From: Straminergon stramineum
Taxonomy: Eukaryota > Streptophyta > Bryopsida > Hypnales > Calliergonaceae
Reading direction: 5' to 3'
Length of the DNA: 64,000 nt
NCBI GenBank assembly: GCA_963920665.1
Contig: OY987273.1
Span: forward strand, 14,262,501 to 14,326,500
Positions 27,668 to 59,243 of this stretch are shown piece after piece. Under the pieces are notes generated by a model. The model was given only the letters and a program-made list of their open reading frames with translations, had not been told where the DNA came from and ran no database searches. Each line of letters opens with the position of its first letter. The stretch's first letter is position 1. A program made the position numbers and the translations under genes.

Positions 27668-27680
27668 CACTAGAAGAAAA
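27668..27680 (+). repeat. Left terminal inverted repeat of the CACTA element
   Basis: CACTAGAAGAAAA, preceded by AAT. It pairs perfectly over 13 bp with 46401-46413. CACTA termini define the superfamily. Confidence 0.92.
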
Positions 27681-27920
27681 ACCTGTCCGCCACAACCGAC
27701 TCAAGTGCAACTATGTGTCCTATACGACTATTCTACAACTATAGCCCTTTGTATTTGCACCAAATTTGACATGTATGTTGTGGTTGCAAAGTAGTTGTAG
27801 AATGATGTGTAGGGTTATGGAAGTGTAACAGAGGAGTTAACGTGAAGTATTCTACATCTAGTATTCATCATTGTTGATGATGTGGACAACGCTAGGATTT
27901 GACTAAGAAAAAACTAGAAT

Positions 27921-28240: not shown

Positions 28241-28531
28241 CAACAATAACACCAACTAGAATTTGACTACAAAACAACTAGAATTTTGCTACAAAACAAA
28301 TACACCAAGCCAATCTGAAGTCAACCAAGCCACACACTTCAAAAGACCAAATAAACATGCCTTCTGATATTAATCAATAGTCTATTAAGAAACACTTAAT
28401 TTCTAATTGCCTCTTTGTTCTACAAAGGACAAACAATTGCATATGATTGTATATAAAATTTGTTGGAACTAAAGAACATGAAGGTAGTGTCAAAGTTGGA
28501 AACAACAATCTAATATTTTGCATAAATGCTT

Positions 28532-33607: not shown

Positions 33608-36600
33608 ATGAGGATACCTCGCGTTTCTTTTGCAGAGCGTGAGAGGGAGCTGAGAAAACTTGGGAATTATTCGACCAAGCAATTGGTCGTGGAGGGTGGA
33701 GAAGCGAGACAACTAGGTGGCCTCGCAATGACTGATAGGGAAAGGGTTTAGGAGAACAACCAAGCGATGAGAGGGCCAGGCACAAAACGAGAGGAGGATT
33801 CCGCAGTAGAGGAGCTATTGGAACTCATCGTGTAGTACAAGTTCGCATTGGCGGAGTGGACCTTCAACTCAAAGCCCATCATCACGAATTTGACAATTAT
33901 AGCCGCGGAGAATGCACACGCTGCTCATGGCATTAGGAAAGCCATCTGTGACCACATTAGTGCGGTATGTCTTTCAGTGAAACTCGGTTCAGTTTTCTCC
34001 ATCCTTCACGACCTAAAACGACCTTGTCCGTGTTTGGTCGTGTAGTTAGAATGAGCAGAATGAGGGGCAAGCATCACCAATGGTTTAGGGTTCTTGATGA
34101 GTACCTGACATTTTCGCCTGAGCCGGCGGTTTGGATTTCACGGAACTGGGATGCACCAGAATTTTGTTTTGGTTTAGGGTGTTTCCTGTTCGGGGCTTAG
34201 GAGGATAATCATCTCGGAGATACTTGGAAGCATGAATTGGATGCATCTGGTGTGAGCTTAATCTTCTTCTATAGGCGTGAGTTATAGCAGTTGAAGGAGA
34301 GATGTCCGGTAGCAAAGCAGTTTTTTGGTCGATTGGAAATAGTGGTTTTGAGAGGGCAGGGTATGATAATGGGGTGTGGAAGCTTCGAAAGCACGTGTCT
34401 TTCTATTTTTTGTGGTTTCCTTGTTCCATCATTTACAGAGGTGCGGATTGTGCATTAAAATTCGTGGGTGATAATTCTCTCTACTTGACGAGGCACCGTG
34501 ATTCGGTGATTCCTTTTGTAAATGGTGGCAGCATTTGTGAGAGTTCGGTTGCCTCGATTATTTGTTTTCAATGGAGTAGTTCATCAGCCATAGGTTCCTG
34601 GGAACGTCCGCGATGTTTTCCTTTCGAGTTGGTCAACTGGATGGTAGTTTTTTGGTTTAGCATTCGAAGTTGATGAAATCACTGATGTCGGTGGCCCTTG
34701 GGTTAGGTTCCTTCAATCCTCACAAACGAATGTTTGGTTCACAAGGTTGGGGATTTGGGGAAATCCACTCCTCGTTTGTCATGAACCTTGATCTTATGGA
34801 GTCCCTGACTCTCTGATGACGGAATGCCACGACTTTACCCTTTCACTCCGACTCTCACGTTTGCATATGGTCACTTATATGTTTGGGTGGTTTTAGTCTA
34901 TGGTCGATATCTTCCGGCATGGTAAACTATCCAGTCTCTATTCTGATGGCTATGGTGGCTTTCTGATTTCGAGGTTCCAAAGGAGCAGAAGCTTCCGTCT
35001 TTGTACCTCGTGGACAATATCAATCAGAGCATCGGAGGTGATTATGTTAAATGTTTTGTTGCACGACTCCCCGAGGTACTCTCTAGACATAAGTGGGCCA
35101 TTTATCCTTGTCTGATTAGCTCTATGCCAATAGAGTTATGTGCCTGCGTCTTCACAGTGGTTGCTTGTCGTGTTGGTCTCCTATTTTCTTGCAAGACGGC
35201 GTCTTTGGGATAACGTTCCTTACGGGTGGGAGGTGGTGGTTACAGGTTAAGGTCGATTTGTCATGTTGCAGGACCATTTGCCTACTTGTACGCAGCATGT
35301 GTGACTCCGTGAGAACCGCCATCACCAGTTGAGTCTTTGTCGTCGGTTTTGGTCACGAGCTTGACAGTTGGATGCGCTTGGGACTTTTCCTCGTTGGTGT
35401 GTGGGATCCACATGCACATTATCCTAGGTCGGGCAACATATCAGCCTCCTTTTAGTGAAGTTGCATTGATGATATACGATGTTATGGACGAAGCTTCTTG
35501 GCTTGTGCCAGGCATTTGAGCAGCGAACCTAGACTGGTTGAGTTGGTCTTGTGATTTGGTGTGTTTCGTGAGGTGCAACTCCACATTGTTTAATTTGGAT
35601 CTGATGCTGTGTGTAGGTGTTTTGTAAGCATACAGGCATGTGGATCCTAGTCTGTATATGGCGATGTAGCATCTATTTTGGACTTGGCGGGGTGTGTTTC
35701 CACCGATTCCTCTACGAACGATCGAGACGAAGCTTCAGTTGAATCTAGAGCCTGTGGGACCTGCAATTGGCAGTCAACCTTCCAGAGCCATGGAACCTCC
35801 TGTACGTCCTAGACATGGTATACATGTGAATCCAAAGTACTTAGAACAATGTCAACTTTTACAACAATCGAGAACTCGCAGGGTCTGCATTTCATACTTA
35901 CCATATTTTGATGTATGCTAGATGTGTAGTCTTTATATACTTGCTTGCTCTGGAAAGTTACGGTAGGCAGATGTTTTTCTTGTGTTCCTCGTGTCAAGGA
36001 TGTCTATTTTCCCCCTAGTTATTGTTATTGTATTCATGAGTGTAGTTCTTTGTTTTTGAAATTAGCTAATGGGGTTGCACCTGTAGAGCACATCGCATCG
36101 GCGATGGGCAAGTTAGGCAAGACCGAGCTCTGCTGAAGGAGAATTCAAAGGTGTGGTCGGAAACGCAGAGGTCTATGGTACGAATTCAGCAATGATTTGG
36201 CCGTTGGAAAGCTCCTCCTCAGCATGTTCCTTTGCTTGCATGTCTCATTTTCTGCTGGACTTTGACTCACTTCTGCCGTGTGCTAGTCAAGCCTATCAAT
36301 AATTTATTTCTTGACGACAGATCTTGTAGAGGTCTTCTTGGTTTGTCGAAGTCGGCTGTGTTCTTTAATGGATGGGTTGTAAATTGTGGGGCAGATCAGG
36401 AACCTCAATCACAAGTGTTTTGGTGATGGCGGTTACACCAAAGATTACCCCGATTATGAGTTTGAGAGGTGAGGGGGAGTATGGCCTGACCTGGGTAATT
36501 CGAAGAACCTAGATGGACTAGATCAAGGAAAGAGCAGTGCATGGATTTGTGATGGGGACATTGGTAAGGGCAATGGAGTTCCTAATGAGAGGATACAACC

Positions 36601-38828
36601 ATATCCTCCTTGAAATGGCTACGCCCCTAGAACATCCTCTGGAGAGTAGGGAGCGCCAACTAACCAAAGTAGGGAGCGCTTTGCTAGCTGACCAGTTCTC
36701 TGGTTCAGTAGAAATGCGGCAGCTCTTCGCAGAGTAGGGCTCTCACCTGGACTATTGTCATGGGTTTGTTTTTGAGGTCATGCATGACAATTTGTTGTGG
36801 GAATGGTTGGTCTTTGTGCACTTTCAATGGCTATGTTGTTTCATCAGGGAATAGTTCCTCTTGTAATGACATGTTTGGAGCATGAGGCGTGAGGTCTGAA
36901 TTTGACCATAGAAGCATAGTCTTAGCGTAGCCCATTGTGCGCAACTTGCTTTTACTTCGTTCTAACGTGAGTCTTGCAATGTTGTTTGTCAACAGGAGTC
37001 GGAGGAGCATAGCCGCCTTGCCCTTCCCCAATCCGGTCATGATTCTCATGCGAAATTGGAGCCTGACATGGAGTCTATGCATCCTACACATTCCAAGTTG
37101 GTTACACTTCAAGTACTTGAGGGCGGCATTATATAGGGATATTTAGTGCCAGATGGATTTTCGTGTGGGTCTACAATATGTAATTTATGACCCTTGCTTA
37201 GTTTGGACAATGTCGAGCGTGGATCCAGTTATTGTCGTTGTGTTTAGGAATTCGAGATATGGCTTCTTCTGGTGGATCCTTGTTGAGCTTGTTATGATGA
37301 AATTGCCACCTTGCAATCCGTATCCCTTATGTGCAGGCAAATCTTCCAAATTTCAGTATGCCATTAGCTGCATCGAATGTACTACCCCAACCAGGGACTA
37401 CTCCACTTCCGTCCTCAGCCATAGGGGGCGTTGTCTTAGGTGTCCAAGGGGAGTATGGATTGCGTCTCAGCTATCCTCCAAATTTGGAGCTACTCCCACC
37501 TTATAGTAACCCCAGCACTGTGACATTTTTTCAAGGCCAGAGCGATGGGCTGATGACTCTAGGTAATCTGCCACTGCCCCTGTAGCAACAACAAATGAAC
37601 AAGGATCAGAACCACTCATCGTGTGAGCTTCGACCTCCGATGTCATTGCCTCAAGTGTATGGAAGCGCACTATCCCAGTTGCCCATGTTCTCTCTGGGGC
37701 AGCAGAAAACCCTTGTTCAGATTGCATTGATGTCTCAACAGACGTCACACATAAGTGTAGAAGGCTTCATCAACCCATTTTTGCAACAGTCCCAAGCCAC
37801 AACAATGGCCTCGTTGCAAGCTCAACAATCTCAAGGGAACCAATTCCATCAACCAACGCAAGTGGTTTCCGATCTACCAAGTAGCCAACCCGACATGCTA
37901 CCCCTCAATAGTGCCGCCATTTCTGAGCTGCTGAAGATGGTCCAACAACTGCCAACTCCCTAGAATCAAATGCAACAACAACAATCCGTTGCAGTGACCT
38001 AAACCCAGGTACAAACTGTAGTACCAAGTGAGGTGTTGCAACCCGCTTCAGGTGCACCTCCCTTGCCGAACAGTCCACCTCCAACATTTATGCAAATAGC
38101 ATTACATAAATTCCTGATACAACAGGGAGTGTAGTACCCGATAGGACAAGGTCAGCTGCCGCCTCCAATGGTGTACTCAAGCCAACAACAACCTCATTTG
38201 AACCAACACCCTCTTCCTCCTGGTCCTCCCCCACGATCTGCTTTGGCAATGAATCCCACTCCTACCCCAACGCCAATGAATCAATGTGACACTCTGTTTA
38301 AGTCACTGCTAGCCCAAGGGTTGATATTAGGGTCTACTTCGACAGCTGCTATCAACTTTCAACCTCTAGGTGTGAACCTTCAACAAGGCATGAATGTTGT
38401 AAACACAAGTTCGACGTTCTTCAATCCAAGCGCTCTTCAAGTGGGCAAAATTCACAGAAGAAGGTTTCCGGGAAGTGGTTTGTGAGTGAGAAAGATTGGC
38501 TTAGTGGGACAGGGTCCTCGACCACACAATCGTCTCCTTCCTTCTTTGCTGCAAAGGTCAGGGCAGTTCTGCCCAAAGTTGATGAGGGAGAGAATTTGGA
38601 TGTTCCAGCAGATTATAATCAAAGTGTTTGTGCATTATGTGGAGAACCATTTGATGACTTCTATAGTGATGAGAAAGATAAATGGATGTACAAGGGCGCA
38701 TTGTATATGAATGTTCCCACAGGTGCTCCTATAGAGGGATCAATACTACGACTTTGGGCCCCATTGTCCATGCAAAGTACCAGACCAAATCAGCAGCTAC
38801 AACAGATTTGACTAATGACAAGGAAGAG
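33608..38828 (+). pseudogene. PCFS4: Captured PCF11/PCFS4-like pre-mRNA cleavage factor gene with introns
   Basis: Exon 1 (ATG 33608 to 33964, donor GTATGT) holds the start of the CTD-interaction domain: FALAEWTFNSKPIITNLTII, AAENAHAAHGI. Exon 2 (34974-35075, exactly 34 codons) is [15 protein letters not shown]...[11 protein letters not shown]. Exon 3 (from 35617) has AYRHVDPSLY, HLFWTWRGVFPP and HGIHVNPKYLEQ. Further pieces follow near 36.4-36.7 kb. A long Pro/Gln-rich segment from the acceptor at 37,330 to 38,470 follows, then FVSEKDWLSGTG and the zinc-finger block PADYNQSVCALCGEPFDDFY...KWMYKGALYMN and, after a frameshift near 38.74 kb, LGPIVHAKYQT, ending at GAG|GTAAAT (38828). PCF11 links RNA polymerase II CTD to 3'-end cleavage. 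This copy has about six TAG, one TAA, a TGA, several frameshifts and Tyr for a zinc-ligand Cys (HAKC to HAKY), so it is dead. Confidence 0.88.
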
Positions 38829-38870
38829 GTAAATTGTATGATATTATTTGTTGCACAAGCTCCATGGCAG

Positions 38871-39035
38871 GTGATACAACCCTTGGTGGCATTAGCTTGT
38901 CAGGGAGGGAATCTGGAGATTGTAGATACAGCTGCAAATACAATAACTACGTCATTTGTTGTGCACAATAATCAGACTGTTTGTGGTGTACGCTGGCTTG
39001 GGAATACACAACTTGTCTCATTTTCCTACATTGAG
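38871..39035 (+). pseudogene. WDR11: Captured WDR11-like exon
   Basis: Exactly 55 codons between AG (38869-38870) and GAG|GTTCTG (39036) read VIQPLVALACQGGNLEIVDT...TSFVVHN...GVRWLGNTQLVSFSY. This matches the plant WDR11-type WD-repeat protein block (IDVVDVSANAVA.SF.VHNG.VRGLRWLGN.RLVSFSY). There are no stops or shifts. It sits 42 bp after the end of the PCF11-like piece, so two unrelated host genes were joined. In the window's reading frame the PCF11 exon could read straight through into it. WDR11 acts in endosome-to-Golgi trafficking; only one exon is present here. Confidence 0.72.
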
Positions 39036-41375
39036 GTTCTGCAATTTCTTCTAGCTTGAGATGCATTAGTGCATATTCATCTTTCATCAAATGGCGATAT
39101 TCATTGTGATATTGAATGGCTTCTAATCTATTCATTTATAAATTGACTGATTTTATTCATTTGTTATATTTTGCCAACCTTTTCTACTTGTTTTGGCCGA
39201 TTAGTACACGTATCTGGCTCTATTTGAAGCTTTTCTTGATTCCCTGTGTATTTGTGTTATTATTTCTTCATTTGTTGTGAACTATTGAGCATTTTATTGT
39301 GTGCTATGTTGCGAAGGACAGAATCTCATGATCGAGACCATTAGCTCAATTTATTCAATGTAATACCAATTTGTAGTTTTAAAAGGGAAATGGATTTGTC
39401 AGCAACAACACGTGCATTCGAGTAAACCAACAGTTTAGGGTTTGTTTATGGCTCTACAATCTCCCGCAAAAAATAGTTATATAAGAAACTCATACATATT
39501 CAAATTTTTTTTGATCCCAATAGATCTCTCGTACCCATCCAGCACTCTAGTAACTTTTTGTCGACATCCCCAAATTCCAGCCTTACATGCTAAAATGTTC
39601 AAACTGATGGAAATTGTATCCTCCAATGTACAAGACCATATAGCAGGATTGTAGATAACGCATATTAGCGCAATCCACCTTTCTCAAGCTTATAGAGGAA
39701 AGAGACTTAGTCCAAGTAATAGTAATCAATCCTAGGTAGTCCTTATCCCGTGCAGTTAGCATGGCATTGACTTCTTAGGGTTTTGTACAAACACTTTGTA
39801 TCGGAGACATGGTTTCCGTTCCGTGCTTTAGTGGTGTGCTTTACTGTTGTGGTTGACATGGAGTGCAATCCATGCTTCAGTTCATCTTGCTGCATTATTG
39901 CGTCAAGCTGTTGAGGTAAGGAAGGAGGCGCTTGTGGGTTTGCTATCTGAGAGGCTTTTGGGTTTTTTCAATTGATAGCAATTGAAACTTCTTTCGAAAC
40001 AGAAGTAGAGTGCGTACTTCAATTTGTCTTGTGCATTGTCTATTGTGGTTGAGGTAAGCAAGGAGGTGCTTGAGGGTTTGATACATGTGAGGCATTTGAA
40101 TTTTTTCAATGGACACCTTAGTAAACGAAACTTCTTTGGAGACAGGAGGTGTAAGGATATGCCGCCAAGAGTGTTGGTACAGTGGTATTGTAAGAGGATG
40201 GTTAGCATTTTTGAAGGGGGTGGTTAGGTTGTCTTATGTTATTCAAAGGTGGATTGAACTACTGCACTAGAAATTTAGTTGGACAAGAATTTCGAGTTCA
40301 GCAAACGTTCTTCTTGGTTGTGGTTACAATCAGTAGTAGTCTCAAGGCTGCTTTCATTTGGGGTTTCAATTTAGGGTTTCATGATCTTCACTTGCAATGT
40401 TTTTCTGTTCTGGGTATAGGGCTCTCCAATGCTTTTTTTTATGTGTGCTTGAGGGGCTAGCTATTGATAGTTCTCTTTTGAGGAGGTTTTCCACTTTTTT
40501 TCCCTTTTCCCTCCCCTAGCTACGGATGGATCTATTTAGTTATTGTGGACACTAAGAAGCATAGGAATTGTGCTCTTTAGAGTTAAGGTTTTCCAATACA
40601 GTAAGAGTTTTGGCTCCCATGGACTCACTTAAATTAAATTTGAGATAGAGCCAAGACAAATTTCAGTAGAGGATGACTTTCAAGTTGCTCTTGCCCTAAT
40701 GCCCAACTCTGTAGGTTTCAAGAGAACAATCTTTTGCCACATGCTAAACTAAAGGAGTTCAAAGTGATTTGCCAACAATAGTTCTATATGATCTTGCTAT
40801 TTTATCAATGTGGCTTAACTTTGTGGTCATTTGTGGTGCAATGTTGGAGCAATTGTAGGGAATTCAAAGTTCTCTCAGGACTTGTGCAAAAGGTGATTTG
40901 GAGAAAAAGCTCTTCACTATGGTAGTCTGATTTTGCATCGCCATTTTGTCATTTACTAGTTTTGCTTCAAATAGATATTGCTAAAGTGGTGACCTTGTAT
41001 GGTAACAATTGAAGTTCATGATTCTTGTTGGGATGCTTCATCTAGGAATTTAATGGCTTCAGTCAGCATGGTTTGAACATTTAGTTGAGATTATGAATAA
41101 CTTCTAAGTAGATCTTATTGGATATGATTATACTTGAGGCTTCCTTGATTGATAATGACAGTACTTCTCTTCTTTGTAGAGTTCATGAGGTTTTGAATAG
41201 TTCATGAGGTTTTGAATAGTTCATGTCAATTTGTCAACAACGTAGAATAGTAGTTGTCTTGATGCATTCTCTTGTGCTAGCAATAGAAAGAGTTCTTGAA
41301 GAATTGTATGATATTGTAATTGTTCATTGAACCATTTTTTTGACTTGTTAGGTAGGTGAGTGAGAATCACTTGAC
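39036..41375. other. Non-coding interior of the CACTA element
   Basis: No gene is recognised. An imperfect direct duplication of about 120 bp lies at about 39,910-40,010 and 40,045-40,150 (GAGGTAAG(G/C)AAGGAGG(C/T)GCTTG followed by TTTTTTCAAT and GAAACTTCTTT). The right breakpoint of the captured DNA lies in this stretch. Confidence 0.4.
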
Positions 41376-41639
41376 ATGGATTCTAGTGACTAACAAAAGA
41401 CGGAGATGGAATTACGTCAAGATGCTAGAAAAGTAGAGCTAGCAATACAAATACAACCAATGGAAGTAGCAATAGAAGCAGCAGCCAAGAATTTGTAAGT
41501 ACCTCTTCAAAATTTGGAGATTGTCTTTAGTCTTCCAATGATGTTTACTATTAGGTGGTTGCAATATTTTTGCTTACAGTTAGTATTACAATAGTTTTTA
41601 TAAGAAGTTCCTTGAATATTACAAAAATAATTGAATTGA

Positions 41640-41790
41640 AGTAGTTTTGAACTTGCTCCAGTTGTCATATAATTGCAAACTAGTTGCCATCTAGTTGTTG
41701 TATAGTTGCAAACTAGTTGTCATCTAATTGTTGAATAGTTGCAAACTAGTTGCCATGTAGTTGCAAACTAGTCATCTTGTTGCAAACTGG
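41640..41790 (+). repeat. TAGTTGCAAACTAGTTG repeats in intron 1 of the second CACTA gene
   Basis: Variants of TAGTTGCAAACTAGTTGTCATCT are repeated about four times. It is the same AGTTGCA word as the subterminal arrays. Confidence 0.65.
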
Positions 41791-43439
41791 ACCAATGGAA
41801 GTGATGTCATAAATCTCCATGTATTATGTGGCTACCTAAATAGATGATTGTTTTTTATATCCTTTCCCTTTAAAGCTATAATGTTAAAGCTATAATGTTG
41901 GTTTGTTTGCAGTGGAACTTCAATTGCAAAGCCTAAGGCCAAGAATGTGAAGGAACAGCGTCCTCGAGTTCCGCCATTCGCTAGGCATAAGAGTGCTAGA
42001 ATTAGTGGTAAAGACCCAAAAGCTATCAACGAAGATGTGAGTATTGAAGATCATATGTCAGCTTTAGAGAACTCTCATAGCACTAAAGAACGTGAGTTTA
42101 TAAAATTTTACTTTCATTAAACTTCCTTTAAAGAAAGTGAAAGGTTCTTCCACGTAAGATTATTTTTTCTTTTATACATTACTTCTAATACTACTATTGT
42201 TATTGTAATCTTTTAGGGAATGAGGACAGCCAATCTGAAGAGGATGATGGTTGCATATATGGAGAAGCCTCTGGTAGCAAAGACAAACGGATGAGATTAG
42301 GAGTATCCTCACCTCCTCTTCATGGTGGATTCGAAAGACAACCAAGGCACCAAAGCCTAATTGGACAATGGTAGTGGCAATGGGTACCACCACAGTTTGT
42401 GCCACCACCACCTACTGAACCTCCACAATGGGCAATGGTTGAATCTCATATTCCACCGTATTTAGCTTCAGGACAAGGGCATGAGCAATCACAAAAAGTA
42501 ATGTGTAAGTCTAATAGCATTGGACGTTCTATTAGACACAAGAAGGAAAAAGAGTTTGAGAAGAAAGCAGAAGTAAGAAGCAACAATGGCAGAAAACCAA
42601 ATGAATTACATGTGCACTCGAATGGTGAAATTGATGCTTCTTCTTCTGGGAAGACTACTTGGGACCGAAGTATGAGGGCTTATGCCTCTTTGATACTTGA
42701 CATGAGCGTTATTGACTGGGATAAACACAAGCCACAAACTTTGAAGAAGCTCAAAGACACTATGGATCTTGAGTTTGAATATGTGGGGAATCTTCTTAGT
42801 AGCAAGGGTTTTCGTAATGCAGTGTAGAGGTTATTGAAAGGTGAGCGATGTCGATTGAAGAAATTATCTGATCCTGAAAAAGATGATGACTGTCCAATGA
42901 ATATTGATCCTGAACAATGGAAGCAGTTGAAGTTATATTGGAGCACAGGTGACCAAGTAAAGAAATCGGAGATGATGTCTAATGTTAGAAAACAGTTTCA
43001 AAATGTATCAATTGAAAGCGTGGTCGACGAGGGAAGGCAGGTGAAGAAGCAGATGTGGTGAGTTTTTATTTGAACTTTATTTTGGCTTGTTATCATCCTT
43101 GTGAATCAATTTGTTACTAGTTTTTTGTATTATTCTTCTAAATCATTTTGACAACATCGTGGTAATGTTGGCCTTCTATTAGGTGAAAGAGAGGGAAAGA
43201 AGTCCAGGGCTTAGTAAACTTGTAGATGGTCTACAAGCATTAGGGTCATCGGTAAGTGTTCTAAATGTTATTTTCATTTCAAATTATGCATCATTAATTT
43301 TGATAGGTCTGTGTGTAGGTTGAGTGTGTTAGTTTATGAAGTCAATGAATATAAGTCCTTGTATTTGTAGAGTGGTCAAATATCATCATCTAAGAGAACT
43401 TAGTGGTGTAAGAGTTGTACTGGGATTGTAGAAATGGTA

Positions 43440-43795
43440 GTCTTTGCAGTTGCATATTATGTAGGAGTTGTATAGGAGTTGCATAGGAGTTGCATAACGG
43501 TTGGATAGTAGTTGGATAGGAGTAGCATAGGAGTTGCATACCAATTGGATCCGAGTTGCGTAGGAGTTGCATAATGCTTGGATAATAGTTGGATAGGAGT
43601 AGCGTAGGAGTCGCATACCAATTGGATATGAGTTGGATCTGAGTTGCGTAGGAGTTGCATAATGCTTGGATAGTAGTTGAATAGGAGTAGAGTAGGAATT
43701 GCATACCAGTTGGATCTGAGTTGGATCTGAGTTACATAGGAGTTGCATAACGATTGGATAGGATAGCAGTTGTGTAGGAGTTGCATAGTACTACC
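43440..43795 (+). repeat. Tandem GAGTTGCATAG/GAGTTGGATAG array in intron 4 of the second CACTA gene
   Basis: A 10-11-bp unit (GAGTTGCATAG, GAGTAGCATAG, CAATTGGATAT) is repeated some thirty times, in a higher-order unit near 100 bp. All three minus frames across it are open and give Asn/Ser/Gln-rich repeats, which I treat as an artefact of the repeat. Confidence 0.75.
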
Positions 43796-45419
43796 ATAAG
43801 TGCTTTGTTCAAAAATTAAAAAAATCAAATTGATTTGTGTGATACAGGTAGTATCTTCAAGACTTCATGCAAAAGTCTCTTCCTTGGAAAGTAGACAAGA
43901 CGAATTTGAAAAGTTCAAGGTTGAGGTACTAGCGAGCACTGAGCATAACACTAAGGCTGTCAAAGCATTGCAAGCAACACTAATGAAATTTTTACAGAAA
44001 GAGAGCATCCTTGAAGGAGAAAATGAAGTCTTAACTACTACAAAAACAAGTCCTTCTCCACCTATTGATCCAACAGGTCCTTCTACAATTGTTGAACCTA
44101 TGGAAGATATCAACTTAATTGAGGATTCCTATGAGTTTTCCTTCCATCAGAGCTTGGAGCCTGTCAACAATCCTAGTTTAGAACTTTCAAGCGAACTATC
44201 ATCATTACAAGACACTGACAATGGTAGTACAGAAAAGAACACACAAAAGATTGACGGAATGGAAGAGCAATCCATTGAGGGTCAAAAAAATATTTCTTGC
44301 GGGCACCTTGATGGGAGTGATGAGCCATTCACGAAAGGGATCGAAGTTGAAGGCAAAGCTGGAGCTGATGTAATAGTACTTGATAGCCCAACGATTATTG
44401 ATCAAGTACCAAAGAATGCAAACCAAGCTACAGAATTTTCTATGCAGCTAAGGAAAGGGAAGAATCAAGAGGTGAGGGAAAATCATGGAATATAGAATTT
44501 ACATTTGAAAAAGTGACTAAAAATTTTCATATGAATTTAATACTAACCAAGATTGTGGTATATGGATGCAGAAGCCTAGAATTAAGAAGGAAATCTTGAG
44601 GATAAAGGTATAGCCTACAGGAAGTCAGAAGGTGGAATCTCCTACACGAAGTCGGAAGATGGAACCTCCAAAAAACAATAAAGTGAGAAATCTATATGTC
44701 TAACCCCTTTGCAAATGTCTTTGTTTGCATTGTTTCCTTATTCATTACAAATTTGAAGTGTATATGTGTTATCTTTATGCATCAATGTTATTTTTATTAT
44801 GTGTGCAGTTTACAATTGGACAACAACTTTCACTTGTGAACCCATCTGCCCCAAGGCAAGTAGTGGCCGCTGGAACCATTAGTGCTGTTGGTGGTGGACC
44901 TGGCCCACAACTATATCATAGACAACCTATTCCTAAAGGATGGTGTAGGCTTAACATTGCACATGCACCAGGGGGGTTCCTTAACTTGATGCATCCAAAT
45001 CTAGCTGGAGATGAATTTCAGTTGAAAGATGTCGTGGGAGCAAATACAATTTGGAATGAACAATACATAGTCATCATTCCCCGTGTTACAGGTCCTGTTC
45101 CTTCAAACTCAAAAGGAAAAATTGGAGGAAAATAACTATTGTAATTTACAAAGTACTTGAGGGAGTTAGTAATACTAATTTTGTATCTAGTGATTGTGGA
45201 AGTAGTGTGTGCTTAGTATAGTATGTAGTAGTAGTACTGCATGTGGCATAGGATGTAAAGATGTGGCTAATAACTATTTTATAAATTAGTGATGGTTTGT
45301 GGAAAATGTTCTTCATTATTGTTTAAACAGTAATATTTGCATCACTGTGAGAAGTCATATAGGAGCTACATTTGAATCACCCATGCTCCAAATTACATGT
45401 GAGATAATCGGCTACGAAG

Positions 45420-46150
45420 TGCATGTAAATTGCCAACTAGTTGTAGATGAGTTGGTTGTAAGCTGCAAATGAGTTGTAGATGAGTTAGTTCTAAGTTTCA
45501 AAATAGTTGCATCTAAGTCAGCTTTGAGTTGTAAACTAGTTGTATGTGAGTTGCAAATGAGTTGTATGTGAGTTGGTTCTCAGTTGTGAGTTGGCTTTGA
45601 GTTGCAAACTAGTTGCATCTAAGTCGGCTTCAAATTGCAAACTAGTTGCATGTAAGTTGGTTTTGAGTTGCAAATGAGTTGTATGTGAGTTGGCTTTGAG
45701 TTGCAAACTAGTTGCATGTGAGTTGGCTTTGAGTTGCAAGATAGTTGCATATAAGTTGGTTTTGAGTTGCAAATGAGTTGTATGTGAGTTGGATTTGAGT
45801 TGCAAACTAGTTGTATGTGAGTTGGCTTTGAGTTGCAAATGAGTTGTATGTGAGTCAATTTTGAGTTGCAGTCTAGTTGCATATGAGTTGGAAAATAAGT
45901 TGCATAGAAGCTATAAACAAGTTGCTAGCAAAGAAGTTGCACATGAGTTGAAAACCAGTCGCAAAAAAGTTGTGAAGCTAAAACTAGCCGCAAAAAGTGA
46001 AAGGCAAATTCAAATGTAGTTGTATAGTAGTGGCAAAGAAGTCATACATGAACTCAATGAAGTTGCAAAGAAGTTGCGAAAAAGTTGCATATGAGTTGCA
46101 ATGATGTTCCATGAGTTGCATACCAGTGTTATGTTAGTTGCAAACAAGTC
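45420..46150 (+). repeat. Right subterminal array, 33-bp unit and AGTTGCA words
   Basis: Between about 45,540 and 45,880 a 33-bp unit (GAGTTGCAAACTAGTTGCAT followed by GTGAGTTGGCTTT) repeats about ten times. Flanking DNA to 46,150 has looser AGTTGCA words. The word is inverted relative to the left array, as expected for binding sites reading inward from each end. Confidence 0.8.
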
Positions 46151-46400
46151 GACTACAAGTGTCCAAAGTATTGATTTGAGTAGTCGATCTCATGTGGCAC
46201 TCTATACCACGTAAGCAGTCACGTTAGAACAATTCGTTGATGAAATTCTTTGCATACTGTCGGATGACAAAAAAACCTGTGCCTAGACTGCAACTAGTGC
46301 AACTTGTCCATTGCAACTATGGGCTCCAAATTATCACCTAGTTGTAAACGTCCTTTGCAACTACAAAACGAGTCACACAGTATAGTTGCAAAACCCCTCA

Positions 46401-46413
46401 TTTTCTTCTAGTG
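46401..46413 (-). repeat. Right terminal inverted repeat of the CACTA element
   Basis: TTTTCTTCTAGTG, the perfect inverse of the left end, followed by AAT, the target duplication. Confidence 0.92.
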
Positions 46414-49100: not shown

Positions 49101-50528
49101 AGTGAAAAGAGGATTGAAAGGCTTCACATCACTTTTGCAATTTTAACACCCTCATAGTCAAACATTATAATCTTTCACTCCTTGAGTGATTTTTTTTTCT
49201 ATGTGATCTATAACATCTCTACTTTGAATTTGTACAGTTACAATTCAAAAAAATTGATACAACTTATGAAAATGTTGGCATTTTCTTCATCTAAGAGCAA
49301 ATACCAAAAAACTCAAAACAGGCCTTGGTGGGCATTTACAAGTTCTAGAATTACTACAACTCATGTTTGGATCCGAATGTCTAGGTTTGGCGTCAGTTCA
49401 GCTTCGGGAAATTTGACAAACCTCTATATCGCACCTGAGGTTTGGATTCGGTGCGGTTCGTTCGGTGGAGTCTAAACCTGCTAAGGCGGCTCAACGTAGC
49501 ATTGGGAGGTCTTCTCTCTCCCTGCACTACGAGTTTGTTACTGTTGCGTGTTGCGATTGTTAGGAGCTGGAGTCCGAAGTTTGTTTCATTCGATTCGTAG
49601 TGCGGTTTGTTGTTGTTTTCTTCTTGTTTTCTTCAATGCACACCTGTGCGATGTACCTTTACGATTGTTTACATTCCCTTGCTGCAAGCGTTGGAGAAGT
49701 GCATGGGTAGCTTGTGAGTTGGCCTCAGTTTAGTGGCTGTGGACGTAGAAGTTTCAATAGTTGCGGACACTTGCGAGAGGTTGACTTCACTATATTTACT
49801 CAGTTTGCATTGCGTAGTCTTTAGAAGTTGTGATTGAGTTCAAGTTCCTATTCAATTGTGGAGTTCTGGAGTTCTCAAGTACGATACAGTTTTCTCAAAT
49901 TTGTGAGTTTTTTCTTTCTTTCACTAGTTTTGGTAGTTATTCCTATATTGTTTGATTGTTTTGATAATATTGCTAATTTTCTTTTTAGAAGTTGCTTACT
50001 TGATAGTTGATTGTGCTTGAACGTTGGGCACGAAATTTTTTCCAAAGGCTTTTTCTCACTTTGTTTCCAATACTATGGTTGCGCATTGACAAAGTAGAGT
50101 TGTTGTTGTTTCAAAATTGCATTTCTATTGTTGGGTTTGTTTAAGAATTGGGTTTGGATTCTTGGGTTTGGAATTTGTAGTTTTGCTTTCATGAGTAATT
50201 GTTAGGAATAGGGTTTTGAACATATTTTTCTAAAATGTGGTGCTCATGGGTGTTGTTGGATTTCACATGGACTTCTAAAACAAAGTTCAATGTTTCGAAA
50301 TCTTTGAGATTCCTTTTCTGTGCTTATAGGTCTGTATTCCAATAAGGAAGAAGTGCAATTTCAGTCTCCAAAAGCATTCAGGAAGTCTACACCAAAGTGA
50401 GGTTTCAAGTATTCTATTTTATACAAATTAGTCTACAATTTAGGGTTTTAGAATCTTAGTTCAATCTTAGTATTCAGTTTTTGTTTGCAAATTCTCCAAT
50501 TTTAGGGTTTAGCTTATTCGAAGACACG
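49101..50528. other. Upstream region of the ParB/methyltransferase-like element, non-coding
   Basis: No gene is recognised. Bases about 49,370-49,560 are less AT-rich than their surroundings (TTTGGATCCGAATGTC..., GGTTCGTTCGGTGG) and could be an element end or promoter region, but no repeats pair with it in the window. TTTAGGG words occur at 50,442, 50,505 and 50,590. Confidence 0.35.
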
Positions 50529-53500
50529 TATCATCGAGTTGAGGACACACTACAAACCTAGTGAATAGATTATTATGTAGAGTCTACAAGTTTAGGGTTT
50601 TGATTATAAAAGAAACGTATTGTCGACTCAAGGATATAGTCATGCATGATAATGTAAAGAAAAGCTTGATAACTTCCAAAATGTAATTCCCACATTCCCA
50701 CTAAGGAATAACTGAGAAAATTTAATTCACAAAAAAACGTTGCCTCCCAAGTCATCCACCTTATTATCAAGTCGACGATACCCTCTTAGATAAAGAATTT
50801 ACGGAATGACATACCAACAATTTAGGAAAATTTAGCCAATAAGTACCAGTCCCTACCCATATCATCGACCCGACAATACCTTTAGAATGATTTAAAGATC
50901 ATTCCACCAATCAGAAGAGAAAACAGCACAGAATTAATGATCAAAAAGAACCATTTGGACATCATTGATATGAAATATGACTAATTTCATGCCTGAAAAC
51001 CAACATCTGAGGGACAAATTGTTAATATAGTAACAAATGAGTATTAATGTCCATAAAGGTCTATATATCTTGACAATAATTTCAGCCAACAACCTCACCT
51101 AAATGCAGATGTCTTTGAGTCAATCATTTTTAAACAATGTTTAAAAAACGTCACCCAATTGTATGACCAATGGAATTTCTCCTCCAGCAATCCAAATAAA
51201 TTTATTGTCAGATCGATGATAGATCAATTTCTAACAGATACGCACAAATCACTTGGGAGGATTAAAAGATGGAGAAGCTAGACCTCTATGATTATTCCAT
51301 AATAGCGCATCATCTTCAGCCCTTCATAAACCCCATAAACGACGAGCCCTTCATCAATGAAATGGCAAATAGCTACAGAATGGTATGGGAGTTCAAAGAT
51401 CATATCAGTACTTGGACCTTCAGTGTTAACCATTGGAAGAACTATATTTATCTTAGATACTGAATACAGGACAAAACGAGATACCTACCTTAGAATATGA
51501 AAGAGAAGGTGATAGTGATTGAGGATCACCAAAGCAATTATGTTGTCATTGTGCTTTGCGAAGTTGATGAGAATGGAAACGAGAAAGATCATTGTCACTC
51601 CATTGTAATCAATGTAAATTCTCATTACAGGAAGTTTGATCTCGAGAACCTCATGAGATTCTTGGAGGGGTTGCAAATGGAGTCTCTCAATGAGGAATTT
51701 GAGAAATCTGGCTACGTTCCCTAGAAAAATGGCATAGCAAAGTCCAATGTGACTAGATTGCGCCATATTTTCCAATCTCTTGATCGATATGCCTTAGCAA
51801 AAATCGAGCTTGTCCCATCACTTGGTAGAAACCCCGCACAAGATCAGAGAGGGGAATCCGAGAGTCGTCAACAAGATGGGTCTGCAGCCGGTGGTTCAGC
51901 AAGCAAAGCAACAAGACCAGGTCAGACAAAATCGGCGACAAGAAAGAGAGACAACATCTCAACAAAAAGGACCTCTATCTAGTAGGAAGAAAAAGAGAAG
52001 TTTTCCTAGAGGAGTTGCAGGTGTTGGAAGTTTAGGATCTGCGCTCACGATTGTATCAACAGGTCCAGCATCCTTCGATACTCCACAATCTGACTATGAG
52101 AAGTTTTCTTTAATTCAAAGAAACTTCTAGGCTGACCACAAGGCCTATTTTTTACTCGGCCAGGAAATAGTATCCATGGACATCAAACAATGCATCCTGG
52201 CGAGTGATCAATATGTCATTTGAATACTACAAAAGGATATCGTTGCTGCTATGAAGAATGAACTCATTCAACTGATTGACATGAAGCAGAGGCAGAAGGT
52301 GTGCCTTACCCTCGTCAATTCTTATAATCACCTTTTGAAAAAAAAGCCAGAGAAATGGGAAGAAATCATGAATGGACAGTTCATGATTATCAATAGTCAA
52401 CACAACATCACGGCTTCAAAAGAGCTTCAAAAAGGAGGCTGTGGAGAATCCCACCGAGTAGAGCTTCAAACTTGGGATGCTTTTATTGTCTGGACCCTTG
52501 ATCCAAACAAATTAAGAAACATCTCGAAATTCTACAACTGCACTAATCATTTGGATCATGCTCAACCAACGTGGGATAACCAAATCATTAGCTGCCGAAA
52601 CATCTAGCTCGCCTACAATCGTCCCACAAATGTCCACTCGGAGGATTTAACTCAAAAGAACAAATCCGTTTTCAACTTGACAAGATATAAGGTATGCAAT
52701 TGGTCTTCCTCATTATCATTGAGTCGAGGATAACTTCTTCATTTCCTATGAGAATGTAAATGCAAATTGATAATATCGAATATGAATAACTCTACATTTT
52801 ACTACTATTTAGGGAATTACTTTATGTATGGACTATCTACGTTTTTATTAACATAGTATTATCATCGACTCGACGATACTAAGGAAACAAATTCAATCGT
52901 TTTCATGCCGGATTGTAACAGAATTACTGTATTGGAAAGTGCAGAGCTTCATGGATGCAGTTGTCGAGAGATTCCAAAATATTAATCCTAAAAAGGATGG
53001 TGCTTCCATCAAGGGGACTACGGATCTGAAAAATGAAATTCAAATCATCACCTTGCTCGATGATCTTTGGGCATACTAGAATCCATTTTTGACAAGGCAT
53101 TCCAAAGGAGAGTTGATGGAGCCAGTTTCCTTGAAATTGTTAAAGGAAATTAAAGGTTTCAAGATTAAAGCAATGTCCTTGAAAAGAGAGTTTTTCAAGC
53201 ATTGCGGATGGTTCACGGACATTGACTTTGGAGTTTTTGCGCAGCACCTACTAGATGAAACTTTGGGGCGTAAATCAATATACCCGAAAGTCTTTGTTGC
53301 GAGAACAAGAATACTAGTTCCCAACAAAATTATGCACGATGATTGGATAGAGCGGAGGAAACACAAGAAAGTTGTTCTCCAGGATTTGATGGACTTCAAA
53401 CCCTCTCTAAAGTTCATAGACAATGGCGGCGATGTCATTGATATGACCTGGAGAGCATGGAAGGTAAGGCATTAGTTTACTTCCGTGTCGTGGGATTTCC

Positions 53501-54388
53501 TTCTCTCGCATCCTAGTACTAAGTATTTCAAGAAAAGGCTCAGGAATGATGTGTGGCGGAAGTGGGTGAAGGATCTTGAGAAACAATTTCTAGAGGTCCT
53601 ATACATGTTCAAGAGGTTTATGAAGTTGAAGTACCAACTTCCTAAACCTGCCGGAGGAGTGTAGGTATGAGGAATTGACTTCATTGCCAAGGTGCTCGTC
53701 ACCAACACAAATTATACCTATCATCAACGAGAGGTTAAATTAGTAGTGCTGGATATTAGGGTGGTCCCACGATCAAATCCAACTGATACCGAAAGCACTA
53801 CTGACCCCTTTTTGACTTTCCTTGATCAGAAATTAGAACCAAAAGTAACTGAGCCAAATATCTAGCTCTTCATTCTCGGTGGGAAGGAGGACGTGAAGGC
53901 TGTAACTTCTTTTGCAGCTCTGAGGCTTATTGGGTATGACTCCGTCATATCCACTTACGTCCCCAATAGAGCAGAGATGTTGAATAACGTGACGAATAGA
54001 GGAAAAGCTCCGGATGTGCCGCTCCTCTTCCTTTTCAAGAAGGATAATGACTTTGCCACTGCCGCCCGCATGTGCCTCAAATCAAAATATGACACACCTT
54101 CTAGGTGTGTATACTATACCAATCCGTCAAAGAATACAGAAGCAAAGTAGAGGATACATCCTACTGAATTGTGGATGGAATTTTATCTAGAAATACTCCA
54201 AGCCTTTGTAACGCCTGATGAAAATGTTCTTGGCATCTACGCAAGACCAAAGTTCATGCTAGCTGCGAAGGTTAGTGTATCTTCTCTCTTAGAAATCATA
54301 TTCTTGTATCTAGAATTATAGTTCTTTAATTTTTCTCAGCTTCTCTTTGAAGTATGTGCAGTCCATTGTTATCCTCGAGTCGACAATA
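50529..54388. repeat. Cluster 2 of the 19-bp palindromic motif, upstream of and inside introns of the ParB/methyltransferase-like gene
   Basis: Copies are at 50529-50547, 50618-50636, 50762-50780, 50860-50878, 51203-51221, 52714-52732, 52860-52878 and 54370-54388, all 19 bp and matching TATCRTCGASTCGAYGATA with few changes. The first five lie upstream of ATG 51269. Two lie in the intron 52692-52944 and one in the intron 54271-54464. Two weak matches fall in the last exon (55438-55500 and 55650-55668). The restriction to non-coding DNA and constant length suggest selected binding sites. Confidence 0.8.
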
Positions 54389-55934
54389 ATGTCATCTACC
54401 TTGGATATACATTCAGCATTCATTTAGAAATGCAAAATCTAAAATGTTTGTTTGTGATGTGTAGATGTTCGATGCGTACTTCTATGGCTTCAGTGACAGA
54501 AAAGATGCAAAGCCATACTCAAAAATCGCTCTCCTAGCGAATAAGATGGATAAAAATGACTTCATGATTTTGAATTCACCTTATTTGCTACTATACAATT
54601 GTTCCACAAATCTTGGACCTGTGGTCATTCACTCCAACTCACCTCCATCGCCACCCATGACGTTGGAGTCACCGCTAAAAAGTAATGTCATGGGGAACTG
54701 CTAGAGGGAAGCTATCGGGCCACACGTAAGTACTGATCCTGGCGTTGAAGGCATCAATCAATTCTAGACTAACACATTCCAGCTCCACACATGGATGGAT
54801 GCTCCTGCTATTCCAATCGTCTTGCAAAGTCAATATGATGACGAGGATGTAGAAACCGACACTGAGTTTGAGAGACATTGGGAGGAGTAAGCTGAAGAGG
54901 ATCAAGGGAGAGACAATGAGGACGTTGTCATTACCGAGGTGATCGGATCCTAGGGGAATCGTGGAGCTAAAGAGAATCACCCTTCAATGGGATCCGATGA
55001 CCCAATCATCATTAGTGATAATGATGATATCGATCATCTGCATTCATCAGACGATGACGATGACATAGATGGTGTTCCTCAACCAGTCGAGCTAAAACCT
55101 ATCATCGCACCCTCTGGCGTGGTGGTGAAGGTCGAGAAGGATTGGTGGAAGAAAGAATAGGAAGGTAGGGAGAGGAGGATAGCTAGGTAGAAGGAGTAGG
55201 AGGAACAAGAAAGTCTAGTTGCTGAGCTACTGGCGGGCAATAAGGCTGCCAATGAGAAAATGACTAAATTCTTAGAGAAATCGGATGCAAAATATGACGA
55301 GCTACAAAGCCAGTTCACAGTGCTCTTGAGTGCATTTCAATCCTAGAAGAGCCAATCGCAAAGCTGTTTGATTACATTCTCTATTGCTGTGAGACCACAA
55401 CCTCAAGTGCTGTCGGGTAGTGCTCTAGCCATGCAGGAAATGGTGCACTTGGTCAGTGGGCTATCCTATCCTCGAGTCAATGGTAAGGATGAGGTGATCT
55501 CACTAGCATATGAGGACCTCGTCATCTCAACTCCAACATCCCAAATGCCCAGGATACCATCTCCAAATGAAGGGGCCTTCGAAGTCTTGGTTCCTGAGGC
55601 AGCTCTTGACGTTGCTCAACAGGAAGACACCATTGAAGGAGAAGAACATTATTGTCGAGGCAACAATAATGTTGTCAATGAGGCAGCACAAACGTCTACG
55701 GCTGAGCCTCATAATGCAGCGGTGTGTGAGGAATCACGTGAAGTCCTCTTGGAGGTGAACTCACCCCTTTTTGTGGAGGAAGAAAAAGTTCACTATAAAG
55801 GGGATGATGAAGACCTTCTCGACAACGTTCCGAAGGAGAGCGAGAAAGGACAACCTTCAGCAGCAGAAGTGGCACTAGAGGATCTAGAAGGAACTGCTCA
55901 GGTACAACCTTTTGACCCTTATGATTTCAATTGA
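51269..55934 (+). pseudogene. ParB-like plus beta-class DNA (N4/N6) methyltransferase-like gene, three exons
   Basis: Exon 1 (51269-52691) has a frameshift near 51.85 kb, a basic Gln-rich linker, then a ParB-like domain: VSMDIKQCILASDQYVI, KNELIQLID, MNGQFMIINSQHNITASKEL (52.37-52.43 kb). Exon 2 (52945-54270) joins in phase and ends in a methyltransferase-like fold: KLVVLDIRVVP (motif IV place), NIQLFILGGKEDVKAV...GY, VPLLFLFKKD, RIHPTELWMEFYLEILQAF and ENVLGIYARPKFMLAAK (motif I place). Exon 3 (from 54465) continues AYFYGFSD, then an acidic region, a coiled coil and an acidic C-terminus. ParB followed by a DNA methylase is common in bacteria and phages. Catalytic motifs are changed (DIRV for DPPY, GIYARPKF for DPFxGSGT), so activity is doubtful. 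About 16 TAG, three TGA and one TAA interrupt it, most at Gln-like sites. Confidence 0.55.
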
Positions 55935-56435
55935 TTCTAGAACCTTGGAGTCATTCATGATTGTGTTCGGTGACTGAGGCTAGAAAGTCCTCTACTAGTT
56001 ATCGAATCTCATTTGTATCCATGCTTCTTGATAGGATGTCATCGTTGCTACTTGATTGCTTGGCGTTGGCAACGAATCTATTTGTGGCTACCATCCCTCT
56101 ACAATAGTGTAGCATAGTGTTGAGAGTAGTTTTCAGTCGACTAGAGATGTAATATAATTTTGCGGCTGTAATATGTAGACTTTGTAAATAAATTATAACC
56201 AATTTCCATGGATTTGTGCATTGGTCTAATAGTCTTTCGCTTTCAATGTTTCTGTTGCTTAGCTGCGCAAAAATAAAAGCATGCATCGTCCGCTACCAAT
56301 GAAAGCACTTTCTTATAGGAGACCACAATCGATTAGGGTAACTGAATGCTTCTATCTGCTTTCTGAATCTCCCATTTCTGCATTTAAATAGGTAACTCCA
56401 TTTCTTTGTTGTTATGCTCTGATTAGGTAGTAGCA
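55935..56435. other. Spacer between two element genes
   Basis: Nothing is recognised. Short open frames on the minus strand appear to be chance. The next gene starts at ATG 56436. Confidence 0.4.
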
Positions 56436-58320
56436 ATGGGCGGAAGAGAGATCGTGCCCAAGAATGTGCCTCCCGTACTTCCTCCACTGTGGAGGAAGTG
56501 GCTGAACATTGTCTTCGGCTTGAACGGCATACTCTGTCAAACGGCGATGAAGTCCTATGGGGAGAAATTCAAACTGTATAAGCTCGAAGATAATGGTCTC
56601 TACCATAGGAATCCCACAATCATCGGATCCAAAGCGGTATTCGCGCGGCAAAATCTAAGTGAATTCCTCCGACAAGTGTCCACGATTGAAGATAGGGTCT
56701 TAGTGTGGACAACGATGTTGAAGCGTAATGTAGAACTCATTGCTGGACACTTGTTCAATGGTTGTAGAGCACCCTACAATATTCTGAGTTAGGAAAGATG
56801 CAAAAAGATAGAGTACTCTCCGGGGAAGTTCTTTCATCTCAATGAGCAAGTGCATTGTATGAAAGTACTCTCCGAGACCTTGTTTACCAATCCAAGCGGA
56901 AGCACGTCTTCACCTTGAATAATATGCTTCTCATTGACGACTCTCCGAACAAGAGTGTCTGCAATGAGAATGGGAATGCCATATTCCTAGACACTTAGAG
57001 GCACCATAATCGCAGAGATGACGTCCTCAAGGGGAAACTTCTACCATGGCTTAGACGTCTAGATTCGAACTGCCAACCGGGCCAAATGCAGACATACGTT
57101 GAGGAAAACTGCATTGGTTTGAACCCATTGGGAGCTGGGGACTACAAGGTGGAGGAGCTCATAGACGGGATGATCGAGTCCTTGAAGGTCATGGTCTCTA
57201 GATATGAGCTCCCTCAAATAGGCATAATTATAGAACAAGGCCGATGTAGGAAGTACGCTGTAAAGAAGATTCTTTCTAGATGTGAGATAACATTTTGTGT
57301 ATAATCCTTGATTTGTATGCTACGATCTTTTGTAAATAATATATTCAGTTTGCATTTCCCTTGAATCTTTGCCATGTACTCGGGGTTTTATTATACATGT
57401 CTCCTAGTCTCAATTGAAGATGCTTTTGCATTTGTTGGACAGAGGTAATGTGGGTGGGCTTATTGATCATATATGTATTGCAGGTTGGAAGCATTCGCTT
57501 TGTTGAACCACTGAAAAGGCAACGGCTAACTAGAAGTCTCCTCTCTAGATCGGAAAGGTCGCTATCCAACCAGTCAGAATCCGAGGGGGGGAGTTGCAAC
57601 ATCGCTTCGTATTCCAAACTATACCTGCTGCTGTTTGCTGCAGACACTACATCCACAACCATTGACTATTCCAAGGGGGACGTTGAAGATAGGGTCGTGG
57701 ACAACCCCTTGAGTCAAAGACCTATGAGGACTCCCATATGCTCTCTATCGCCATTGAAGCAAGCATCCTCAAGTCATGGGAATTCCTTCTCGCCAAAACT
57801 GCAAACGGACACGGTAACAAGTTGCAAACTAAAACTACCCTTGCATGAAGCGCCAGGACATCCTCGGCTCAAAGATGATGTTCCAACTCCGTCTGTAGTT
57901 CCTAATGTTCGCATCGATGGATTAAAGTTGGTGGCTGCGTTGGAAGATGACAAAGGGGGGGTGTTACAGAAGCCGACTACTCATGTTATTGTTCTTCGGA
58001 TTGAGGATAAGCAACCTCGTCCCTTACAATCTGTAGGAGCCAGACGATCTCCTTTCACCGATAGTCTTTTCAGGCAACGAATTTCCAGAGAACATCACCG
58101 TTCGCTGGACTCCAAAATAATAGGGATTCGACTTTCAAACATAAACAATGTCAATGCGTCGCTACAGAGGCGACCTCCTCGAGGGTCAAGATCGCTTTTG
58201 GGTTCAGGGGACCCCCAAGCCACTCGAAGGTCAAAGCGAAAGGAAAATGGAGCTCAAAGCTTGAGCTTATGCGAGTCTTTGGGGGGGGGGAAGTGGGCCG
58301 CACTATCATTCTCGACATGA
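56436..58320 (+). pseudogene. FCP1/NIF-type HAD phosphatase-like element gene
   Basis: From ATG 56436: WRKWLNIVFGLNGILCQ at the place of the HAD motif I (DxDGT/L), GSKAVFARQNLSEFLRQVST, then RVLVWTTMLKRNVELIAGHL (motif II region). A TAG (56791) and a frameshift near 56.85 kb follow, then KHVFTLNNMLLIDDSPNKSV (the DD motif of FCP1 domains) and KGKLLPWLRRLDSN. This order is that of the FCP1/NLI-interacting-factor fold. Motif I has Gly in place of the first Asp, so phosphatase activity is unlikely. The segment to 57.3 kb (VEELIDGMIESLKVM) is not recognised. A further exon starts after TTGCAG at 57482 (VGSIRFVEPLKRQRL) and runs to TGA 58320 with a Ser/Arg/Pro-rich, probably disordered tail. It lies 0.5 kb downstream of the ParB/methyltransferase-like gene on the same strand, so both may belong to one element. 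Confidence 0.5.
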
Positions 58321-59243
58321 GGATATCTTTAAAGGACTAGCAAAGCTCAAAGCATTGGAAGTAGCTAAGAGCAATTGTATAGAAATAGACAAAGTAAAGA
58401 TTTTGCCATCAACAAGTAAATCAAGCAAGTAAATATTTTGAAGTACTTAGTTTTGAGGTACCCTTTACTATTAATAGTATAGTAAGTAGACATACAAAAA
58501 TATTTTCAGAAATTCAATGCTTCATGTATAAGAAACCACTACGTGGATTCCACTGAATCTTATGCCTTTATAGTTCATTCACTACAAAGAATATTTACAT
58601 ACTCTTTTTGTATTAAACCGCACAAGTAATTCCAACTTACTCACTTTAAAGTGACTCCCTTTCTTTGTATGGAGTACTTCAAGTCCTCTATCTGAAAGAA
58701 AGTCTCACATCTTCTATTGTATTGATGCAATTATAATCTCATGTTTCAAGTCAATTGGAGCATCTTGTTCAAAGCTTTCTATTGTTGTTACATGGCTAGC
58801 TCTACAGATCGTTGGGTTCAACAACTCTTAATTCACAGGAGCTTTGCATCCATTTTTTAAAGTCTCAAAATTGTCATTTTGTCTCAATTTAACGAATAAG
58901 GCCTTATTTATGTCATATTTACTAGGTATTACATCTTTACAGAATACATGCCAAATATATGATTGTTTATGAATTTGTAAATGTATTCTGTTTGGAATGT
59001 ATAGGTGTAGTGGGAAAATTTATTTCATGTATGAATTTTGTATAGTTTTTCTACATATATGTAGATTATTTTCTACATGTAAGAATTTTTGCAAATTTGT
59101 AAATTGTGTTGTTTTTGAAATGTAGAAGCATATCTAGAAAATGTATTTCATGTACAAGTTTGTAAAGTTTGTTGTGTGTGGAATGTATAAGCCATTCAAG
59201 TCAATAGGCAAAATTTAGCAATAAAGACTAGGATGGTGATGAC
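58321..59243. other. AT-rich non-coding DNA
   Basis: Nothing is recognised. A run of ten G at about 58,281-58,290, just upstream and inside the last exon of the previous gene, is a likely site of slippage. Confidence 0.4.

Follow-up and report, generated by a model that had tools for sequence, protein, structure and literature searches.

How does a gene that joins a ParB-like domain to a DNA methyltransferase-like domain, a pairing typical of phages and bacteria, come to lie in what is apparently a land-plant genome, and what does it do there? The question is raised by a stretch of 64,000 nucleotides from the moss Straminergon stramineum (contig OY987273.1, here C11:14262501-14326500; hereafter the window), for which a preliminary description had proposed such a gene inside a transposable element. 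The gene was located on the plus strand at 51269-55934, and terminal inverted repeats (TIRs) and 4-bp target-site duplications (TSDs) do flank it. With moderate confidence, we read it as accessory cargo of a giant Sola1-like transposon, a gene whose protein would bind DNA without methylating it and thereby serve the element.

The window copy is made up of three exons, with one frameshift and 20 internal stops in total. Exon 1 (51269-52691, +) contains the frameshift, near 51980, and six stops (3 + 3). Its ParB-like domain, delimited by the alignment of relatives and by fold models, extends over 52119-52691 (+), in which the peptides named in the preliminary description, YVI...KNELIQL and INSQHNITASKEL, were found again. 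Exon 2 (52945-54270, +) has six stops (five TAG, one TGA) and consists of a helical part followed by a methyltransferase-like part from about 53650. Exon 3 (54465-55934, +), with eight internal stops, starts with a YGF segment and continues into an acidic tail with the motif IIISDNDDID. The proposed order of landmarks, that is the motif IV place, LFLFKK, HPTE, VLGIYARPKFMLAAK and YGF, was recovered at about 53740-54500. Both introns are phase 0 (intron 1: donor AAG/GTATGC at 52691/52692, acceptor GCAG/AGC at 52944/52945; intron 2: donor AAG/GTTAGT at 54270/54271, acceptor GTAG/ATG at 54464/54465), which agrees with the claim of a eukaryotic gene with matching intron phases. A motif like IIISDDDDID was seen in exon 3 (54990-55050) and in relatives; the loci examined include 25 distinct copies that carry it, the divergent copy L035 remaining unmatched; by its sequence it looks like a SUMO-interacting motif.

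The genome (326.0 Mb in 59 contigs, of which C1-C11 together make up 324.9 Mb) was searched for further copies, and all copy numbers given here are lower bounds. Exon 2 gave 92 scored matches, some of them partial, from 494 first-look candidates, with identities of 47-86%, the window itself excepted; one match on C12 scored equal to one on C11. When a subfamily of 47% identity was used for a second search, 97 matches were scored from 524 candidates, largely overlapping with the first set. Among public proteins, the exon-2 alignment profile found 88 relatives and the exon-1 alignment profile 209, of which 120 were listed, while none of 5010 candidates matched the joined 1404-aa read-through at E ≤ 0.001. 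Since there are 92 genome matches and 88 and 209 protein relatives, the sequence comparisons indicate that the gene family is real, far beyond chance. Contig C11, at 17.4 Mb the smallest of the 11 chromosome-size contigs, carries 47 of the 92 scored exon-2 matches where 4.9 would be expected from its 5.4% share of the genome (binomial p about 6e-35), an excess that could fit a sex chromosome or one with little recombination.

For the alignments that accompanied the fold comparison, 41 of the 88 exon-2 relatives and 37 of the 120 listed exon-1 relatives were used; mainly shorter or similar rows were left out. In AlphaFold models of relatives, compared by Foldseek, exon 1 is predicted to form a ParB/Srx-like N-terminal fold and exon 2 a permuted Rossmann methyltransferase fold of the beta class. 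The latter shares its predicted fold and permuted order, with motif IV before motif I, with CcrM, M.RsrI, M.BceJIV and other beta-class DNA methyltransferases, but unlike CcrM, M.RsrI and M.BceJIV the family has neither DPPY nor FxGxG, and identity over the aligned part is 10-13%. Likewise, the exon-1 part resembles the ParB/Noc CTPase domain in predicted fold and in a Gly-x-His loop, but differs in sequence, with identities of 9-19% in the ParB, Noc, KorB and PadC rows of the fold comparison. The CTP-binding motif of ParB is GERRxR. It was not found in the 37 exon-1 rows, in which NGQHSIxAS stands in its place (G in 34, Q in 36 and H in all 37); the residue after His is S in 31 rows and N in six, and the window copy reads NSQHNITAS.

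Sequence profiles gave a different picture. Four pieces of the window had no match in Pfam at E ≤ 10, the best values in PHROGs (0.027) and in a phmmer search of the PDB (0.58) were judged to be chance, and hmmsearch of the PDB with the exon profiles returned nothing at E ≤ 10. None of the 41 exon-2 members matched the Pfam model N6_N4_Mtase (PF01555) and none of the 37 exon-1 members a Pfam ParB model at E ≤ 1; the best Pfam matches of these 41 and 37 relatives (0.03 and 0.011) were to unrelated families and were judged to be chance. PF01555 searched against the whole genome gave no match at E ≤ 0.001, with 47 candidates scored. The profile check for ParB and N6_N4_Mtase, which the preliminary description had named as decisive for its proposal, thus went against it at the level of sequence, and the relationship is seen only in the fold comparison. 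Therefore, the proposed pairing of ParB and methyltransferase stands as far as the predicted folds of relatives go, and does not stand as a match to known profiles (0/41 for N6_N4_Mtase, 0/37 for ParB). If the fold reading is right, it is also a warning that this family as a whole escapes Pfam profile searches.

In the known class of methyltransferases, the Pro-Pro-aromatic residues (motif IV) and the second Gly (motif I) take part in binding substrate and SAM. In the window copy, D-I-R stands at the motif IV place (53752-53760, +), where D-P-P-Y is expected, as read from the sequence and the column counts of the family: the Asp is kept in 41/41 rows and is followed two residues on by Arg in 40 (D-x-R) and by Gln in one (D-x-Q), and DPPY does not occur in any of the 41. 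At the motif I place (54226-54252, +) the window copy reads VLGIYARPK and has also lost the Gly of the family form [YF]xGxK; instead of the second Gly of FxGxG, 34 of the 35 rows with a letter at this position have Lys and one has Arg, six further rows being gapped. Since the replacement is common to the 41-row alignment, it is old and family-wide.

Codons of exon 2 were compared among nine copies (36 pairs). Between subfamilies, dN/dS was computable for nine of 25 pairs and amounted to 0.04-0.10, values that are approximate because dS (2.3-3.0) is near saturation; over all 25 pairs raw pN was 0.10-0.37 and pS 0.71-0.89. Among the copies of subfamily A dN/dS was 0.11-0.21 without the window copy (six pairs) and 0.24-0.31 when the window copy was paired with the others (four pairs). 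For comparison, the transposase gave 0.49 (C7-window) and 0.81 (C7-C8) in the two pairs tried, and the core of a neighbouring NIF-like gene 0.25 (C7-window). These codon comparisons indicate that the rebuilt protein is under strong purifying selection, while the window copy decays. The degenerate motifs had been put down in part to decay; this holds for the stops of the window copy, but not for D-x-R and G-x-K, which are family-wide and accompanied by purifying selection.

The same conservation could mean that enzymatic activity persists, in a DNA methyltransferase or another modifier whose altered motifs D-x-R, G-x-K and ELRMEFY make up a functional site of non-standard type. Even in relatives with about 24-31% identity to the first row these columns hardly vary, which is what one would expect of an active site, and the Asp of motif IV is retained throughout. 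Furthermore, passages of PMC12477816 describe, for a relative in Ectocarpus, a domain that is predicted to produce 4mC or 6mA, and suggest self-modification. Set against this, every lettered row lacks the Pro-Pro-aromatic residues as well as the Gly that comes second in motif I, and we regard a surviving enzyme as unlikely, though a serious rival.

The window element spans 18606-58905 (~40 kb), with a left TIR at 18606-18632 (AAGGCCTTA...), matching the right end and the ends of two other copies, and a right TIR at 58879-58905, found by end comparison with the left one; the TSD ATTT is present at 18602-18605 and again at 58906-58909. Two younger elements of about 18 kb on C7 and C8, which are 97.0-97.7% alike, gave the exact borders upon comparison. 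TIRs of about 27 bp of the form AAGGCCTTATTCGTTAAATTGAGACAA were present at both ends of all three elements examined and 4-bp duplications in all three (ATTT in the window, TTAA on C7 and ATAA on C8). The extra length of the window element is mostly due to a nested EnSpm/CACTA element of 18.7 kb at 27668-46413 (TSD AAT; TIR CACTAGAAGAAAA, 13/16 terminal bases matching) with DUF4216 at 28535-29119 and DUF4218 at 29524-30441; a sister copy lacks the window segment 26639-47563, in agreement with this insertion. According to passages of PMC9033089 and PMC10741241, Sola transposons have TIRs and 4-bp duplications, can exceed 15 kb and are present in the moss Physcomitrella. With ends and duplications of this kind, as in the Sola superfamily, the element is probably a giant Sola1-like cut-and-paste DNA transposon, a class name derived from its TSD and TIR features.

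The transposase lies on the minus strand on the left, the ParB/methyltransferase-like and NIF-like genes on the plus strand on the right. On C7 the transposase is an 873-codon open frame (L043:129-2747) with DUF7869 at E = 4.3e-46. In the window, two remnants are left on the minus strand, 19400-20815 (residues ~402-873 of the C7 frame, 84% identity) and 22590-23797 (residues ~1-403, 67% and 80% identity in two frames), split by a 1.8-kb insertion at 20816-22589 that neither the C7 nor the C8 copy has. The second cargo gene, at 56403-57181 (+), is NIF/FCP1 phosphatase-like and broken by a frameshift near 56909 and a stop; it has 85% protein identity to the C7 copy, which matches PF03031 with E = 2.7e-13 (50.3 bits, cut-off 21.8), whereas the window piece had no Pfam match at E ≤ 0.01. 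The catalytic loop of NIF/FCP1 phosphatases is DxDx(T/V); instead, six of six loci have D-L-N and the window G-L-N. A last open reading frame (ORF; KRQRLTRSLLSGSERSLS...) at 57418-58317 (+) corresponds to the final ORF in the other copies, has no Pfam match and may belong to the NIF-like gene as one of its later exons. The order ParB/methyltransferase-like gene, NIF-like gene, last ORF was the same in 6/6 loci of 10 kb, beyond the reach of which the transposase lies.

An old captured gene might simply hitch-hike without helping the element, and decay is indeed widespread: at least one stop was found in exon 2 in 87 of the 92 scored genome matches, and the window copy is dead, as shown by the EnSpm insertion, the 1.8-kb insertion, stops and frameshifts. 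The constant gene order in the six loci and a dN/dS of 0.04-0.31 in every computable pair, including C7-C8, disfavour a mere passenger, which we consider improbable. It is more improbable still that two separate genes or elements were joined into an apparent fusion by decay. This would be in keeping with the different reading frames of the window exons, from which the fusion is predicted as a gene model. In the relatives P0063 and P0070, however, a single open frame runs from the ParB-like exon into the beginning of the methyltransferase-like one, and the intervening intron looks, from the sequence, to have been read through, and an Ectocarpus product of 1104 aa is described as having both domains (passages of PMC12477816). 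Moreover, the phase-0 splice sites are in register, and the exons adjoin in the copies examined. Least probable of all is descent of the element from a giant virus or phage, with the gene as a viral modification enzyme: the pairing, being typical of phages and bacteria, and weak matches in fold to COG0863 methylases of phages, none at E ≤ 0.001, would speak for it, but it was rejected, being largely refuted by the inverted ends, the 4-bp duplications and the DUF7869 transposase, with no match at E ≤ 0.001 in a viral fold library and no relative confirmed in viral contigs (one peptide pattern, 18 stretches) or prokaryotes (one pattern, eight stretches).

The decay of the copies also bears on how the host treats the element. 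C-to-T (and G-to-A) changes were counted in exon 2 and about 1.5 kb on each side. In the window copy they affected 35/152 CG, 17/83 CHG and 31/978 CHH sites, and in 29 other copies 746/4215, 442/2388 and 1227/27852, respectively. C-to-T changes biased to CG and CHG are the trace left by plant-type cytosine methylation at these sites, and the pattern points to silencing of the element by the host. An alternative genetic code was considered, TAG being the commonest stop in exons 2 and 3, and rejected because TGA and TAA stops also occur and the excess of TAG (from CAG) can be explained by C-to-T changes at CG and CHG, which are strongly over-represented in the window copy.

Divergence between the window and C7 elements is uneven. 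Identity was 83-92% in the left part, 45-71% at 50000-56376, which includes the ParB/methyltransferase gene, 82-90% in the NIF core (56376-57568) and 64-74% at 57568-58723; the NIF-like core, at 82-90% identity to another subfamily between flanks of 64-74%, suggests a recombination or conversion tract. The silent-site difference was 0.21 for the transposase, 0.25 for the NIF core and 0.74 (saturated) for exon 2. Such a contrast is not readily made by selection on proteins, and therefore the gene and its neighbours appear to differ in history; judged from these divergences, modules were probably recombined between element lineages.

Most likely, the protein acts as a DNA-binding accessory of the transposon and presumably no longer carries out the usual methylation chemistry; its ParB-like part would clamp or spread on DNA, and a DNA site would be recognised by what was once the methyltransferase part. 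Binding to the element's own DNA could then bring the ends of the 18-kb element together for transposition or, alternatively, keep host silencing off the element, and the NIF-like protein might act in the same service, e.g. on transcription. Several points weigh against this interpretation. The fold assignment comes from models of relatives and not of the window protein, the Foldseek TMq scores (at most 0.36 for the ParB-like and 0.26 for the methyltransferase-like model) are low because only part of each model was covered, and each search gave just two matches at E ≤ 0.001, while a sequence-profile link to ParB or methyltransferase families was absent in the searches made. No fully intact whole gene was present among the six loci with ORFs listed, and for exon 2 of the nearly identical youngest pair, C7-C8, dN/dS was 0.30, making the constraint less clear. 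Loss of methylation catalysis is deduced from the motifs, and D-x-R and G-x-K could serve other chemistry; the DNA target and the role in transposition or anti-silencing are proposals. More tentatively, and in our view somewhat doubtful, the gene could be a module exchanged among giant plant transposons: a catalytically retired ParB-methyltransferase derived from a prokaryotic modification enzyme, acting as a sequence- or methyl-mark-reading DNA clamp for anti-silencing or end pairing, a class as yet undescribed.

The nearest published system is Sola1-1_Ec32, a 21.5-kb element of the brown alga Ectocarpus, for which passages of PMC12477816 describe the 1104-aa protein with ParB-like and N4C/N6A methyltransferase domains and cite "similar proteins" as possible accessory proteins of transposons. 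As far as descriptions can be compared, the moss element is likewise a giant Sola1-type element with both domains in one gene on the strand opposite to the transposase, and matches the algal accessory proteins in the same features within a giant DNA transposon. Unlike the predicted 4mC/6mA enzyme of Sola1-1_Ec32, the family described here has its catalytic motifs replaced throughout, and no Pfam model recognises either domain; it also has a NIF-like cargo gene, which the passages on Sola1-1_Ec32 do not mention. With Sola1 of Physcomitrella the element shares TIRs, 4-bp duplications, a size above 15 kb and a moss host, and the passages of PMC9033089 and PMC10741241 mention no ParB-methyltransferase gene for moss elements. 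The idea of an undescribed element family carrying a prokaryotic-type gene was therefore too strong, since these sources describe the pairing for algal giant transposons and Sola1 for Physcomitrella. A published land-plant report of a ParB-methyltransferase transposon gene was not found in the literature searched, which left most subscription journals outside its coverage. Apparently new, as none of them was found in that literature, are three points: an active site that is both non-canonical and constrained, a NIF-like gene as companion, and the probable exchange of modules.

Three further features were noted. Outside the element, a 621-codon open frame at 10905-12767 contains DUF659 (E = 4.5e-33) and is presumably hAT-transposase-like. 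A 220-codon open frame at 8447-9106 gave weak matches to RING/PHD-type zinc fingers, below the cut-off. Finally, an Ulp1-protease-like stretch (DSSWECGYWAMKYALAY) was recognised by eye in an ORF beyond the end of the C7 element, on its L038 side (C7, about 20.10-20.11 Mb).

If our interpretation is correct, the prokaryotic pairing of ParB and methyltransferase, in print found only for algal transposons, would also occur in what is apparently a land-plant genome, and natural selection would maintain the land-plant form without the standard catalytic residues. The view that transposons methylate themselves would then gain a testable alternative, in which a former modification enzyme is reused as a DNA reader.

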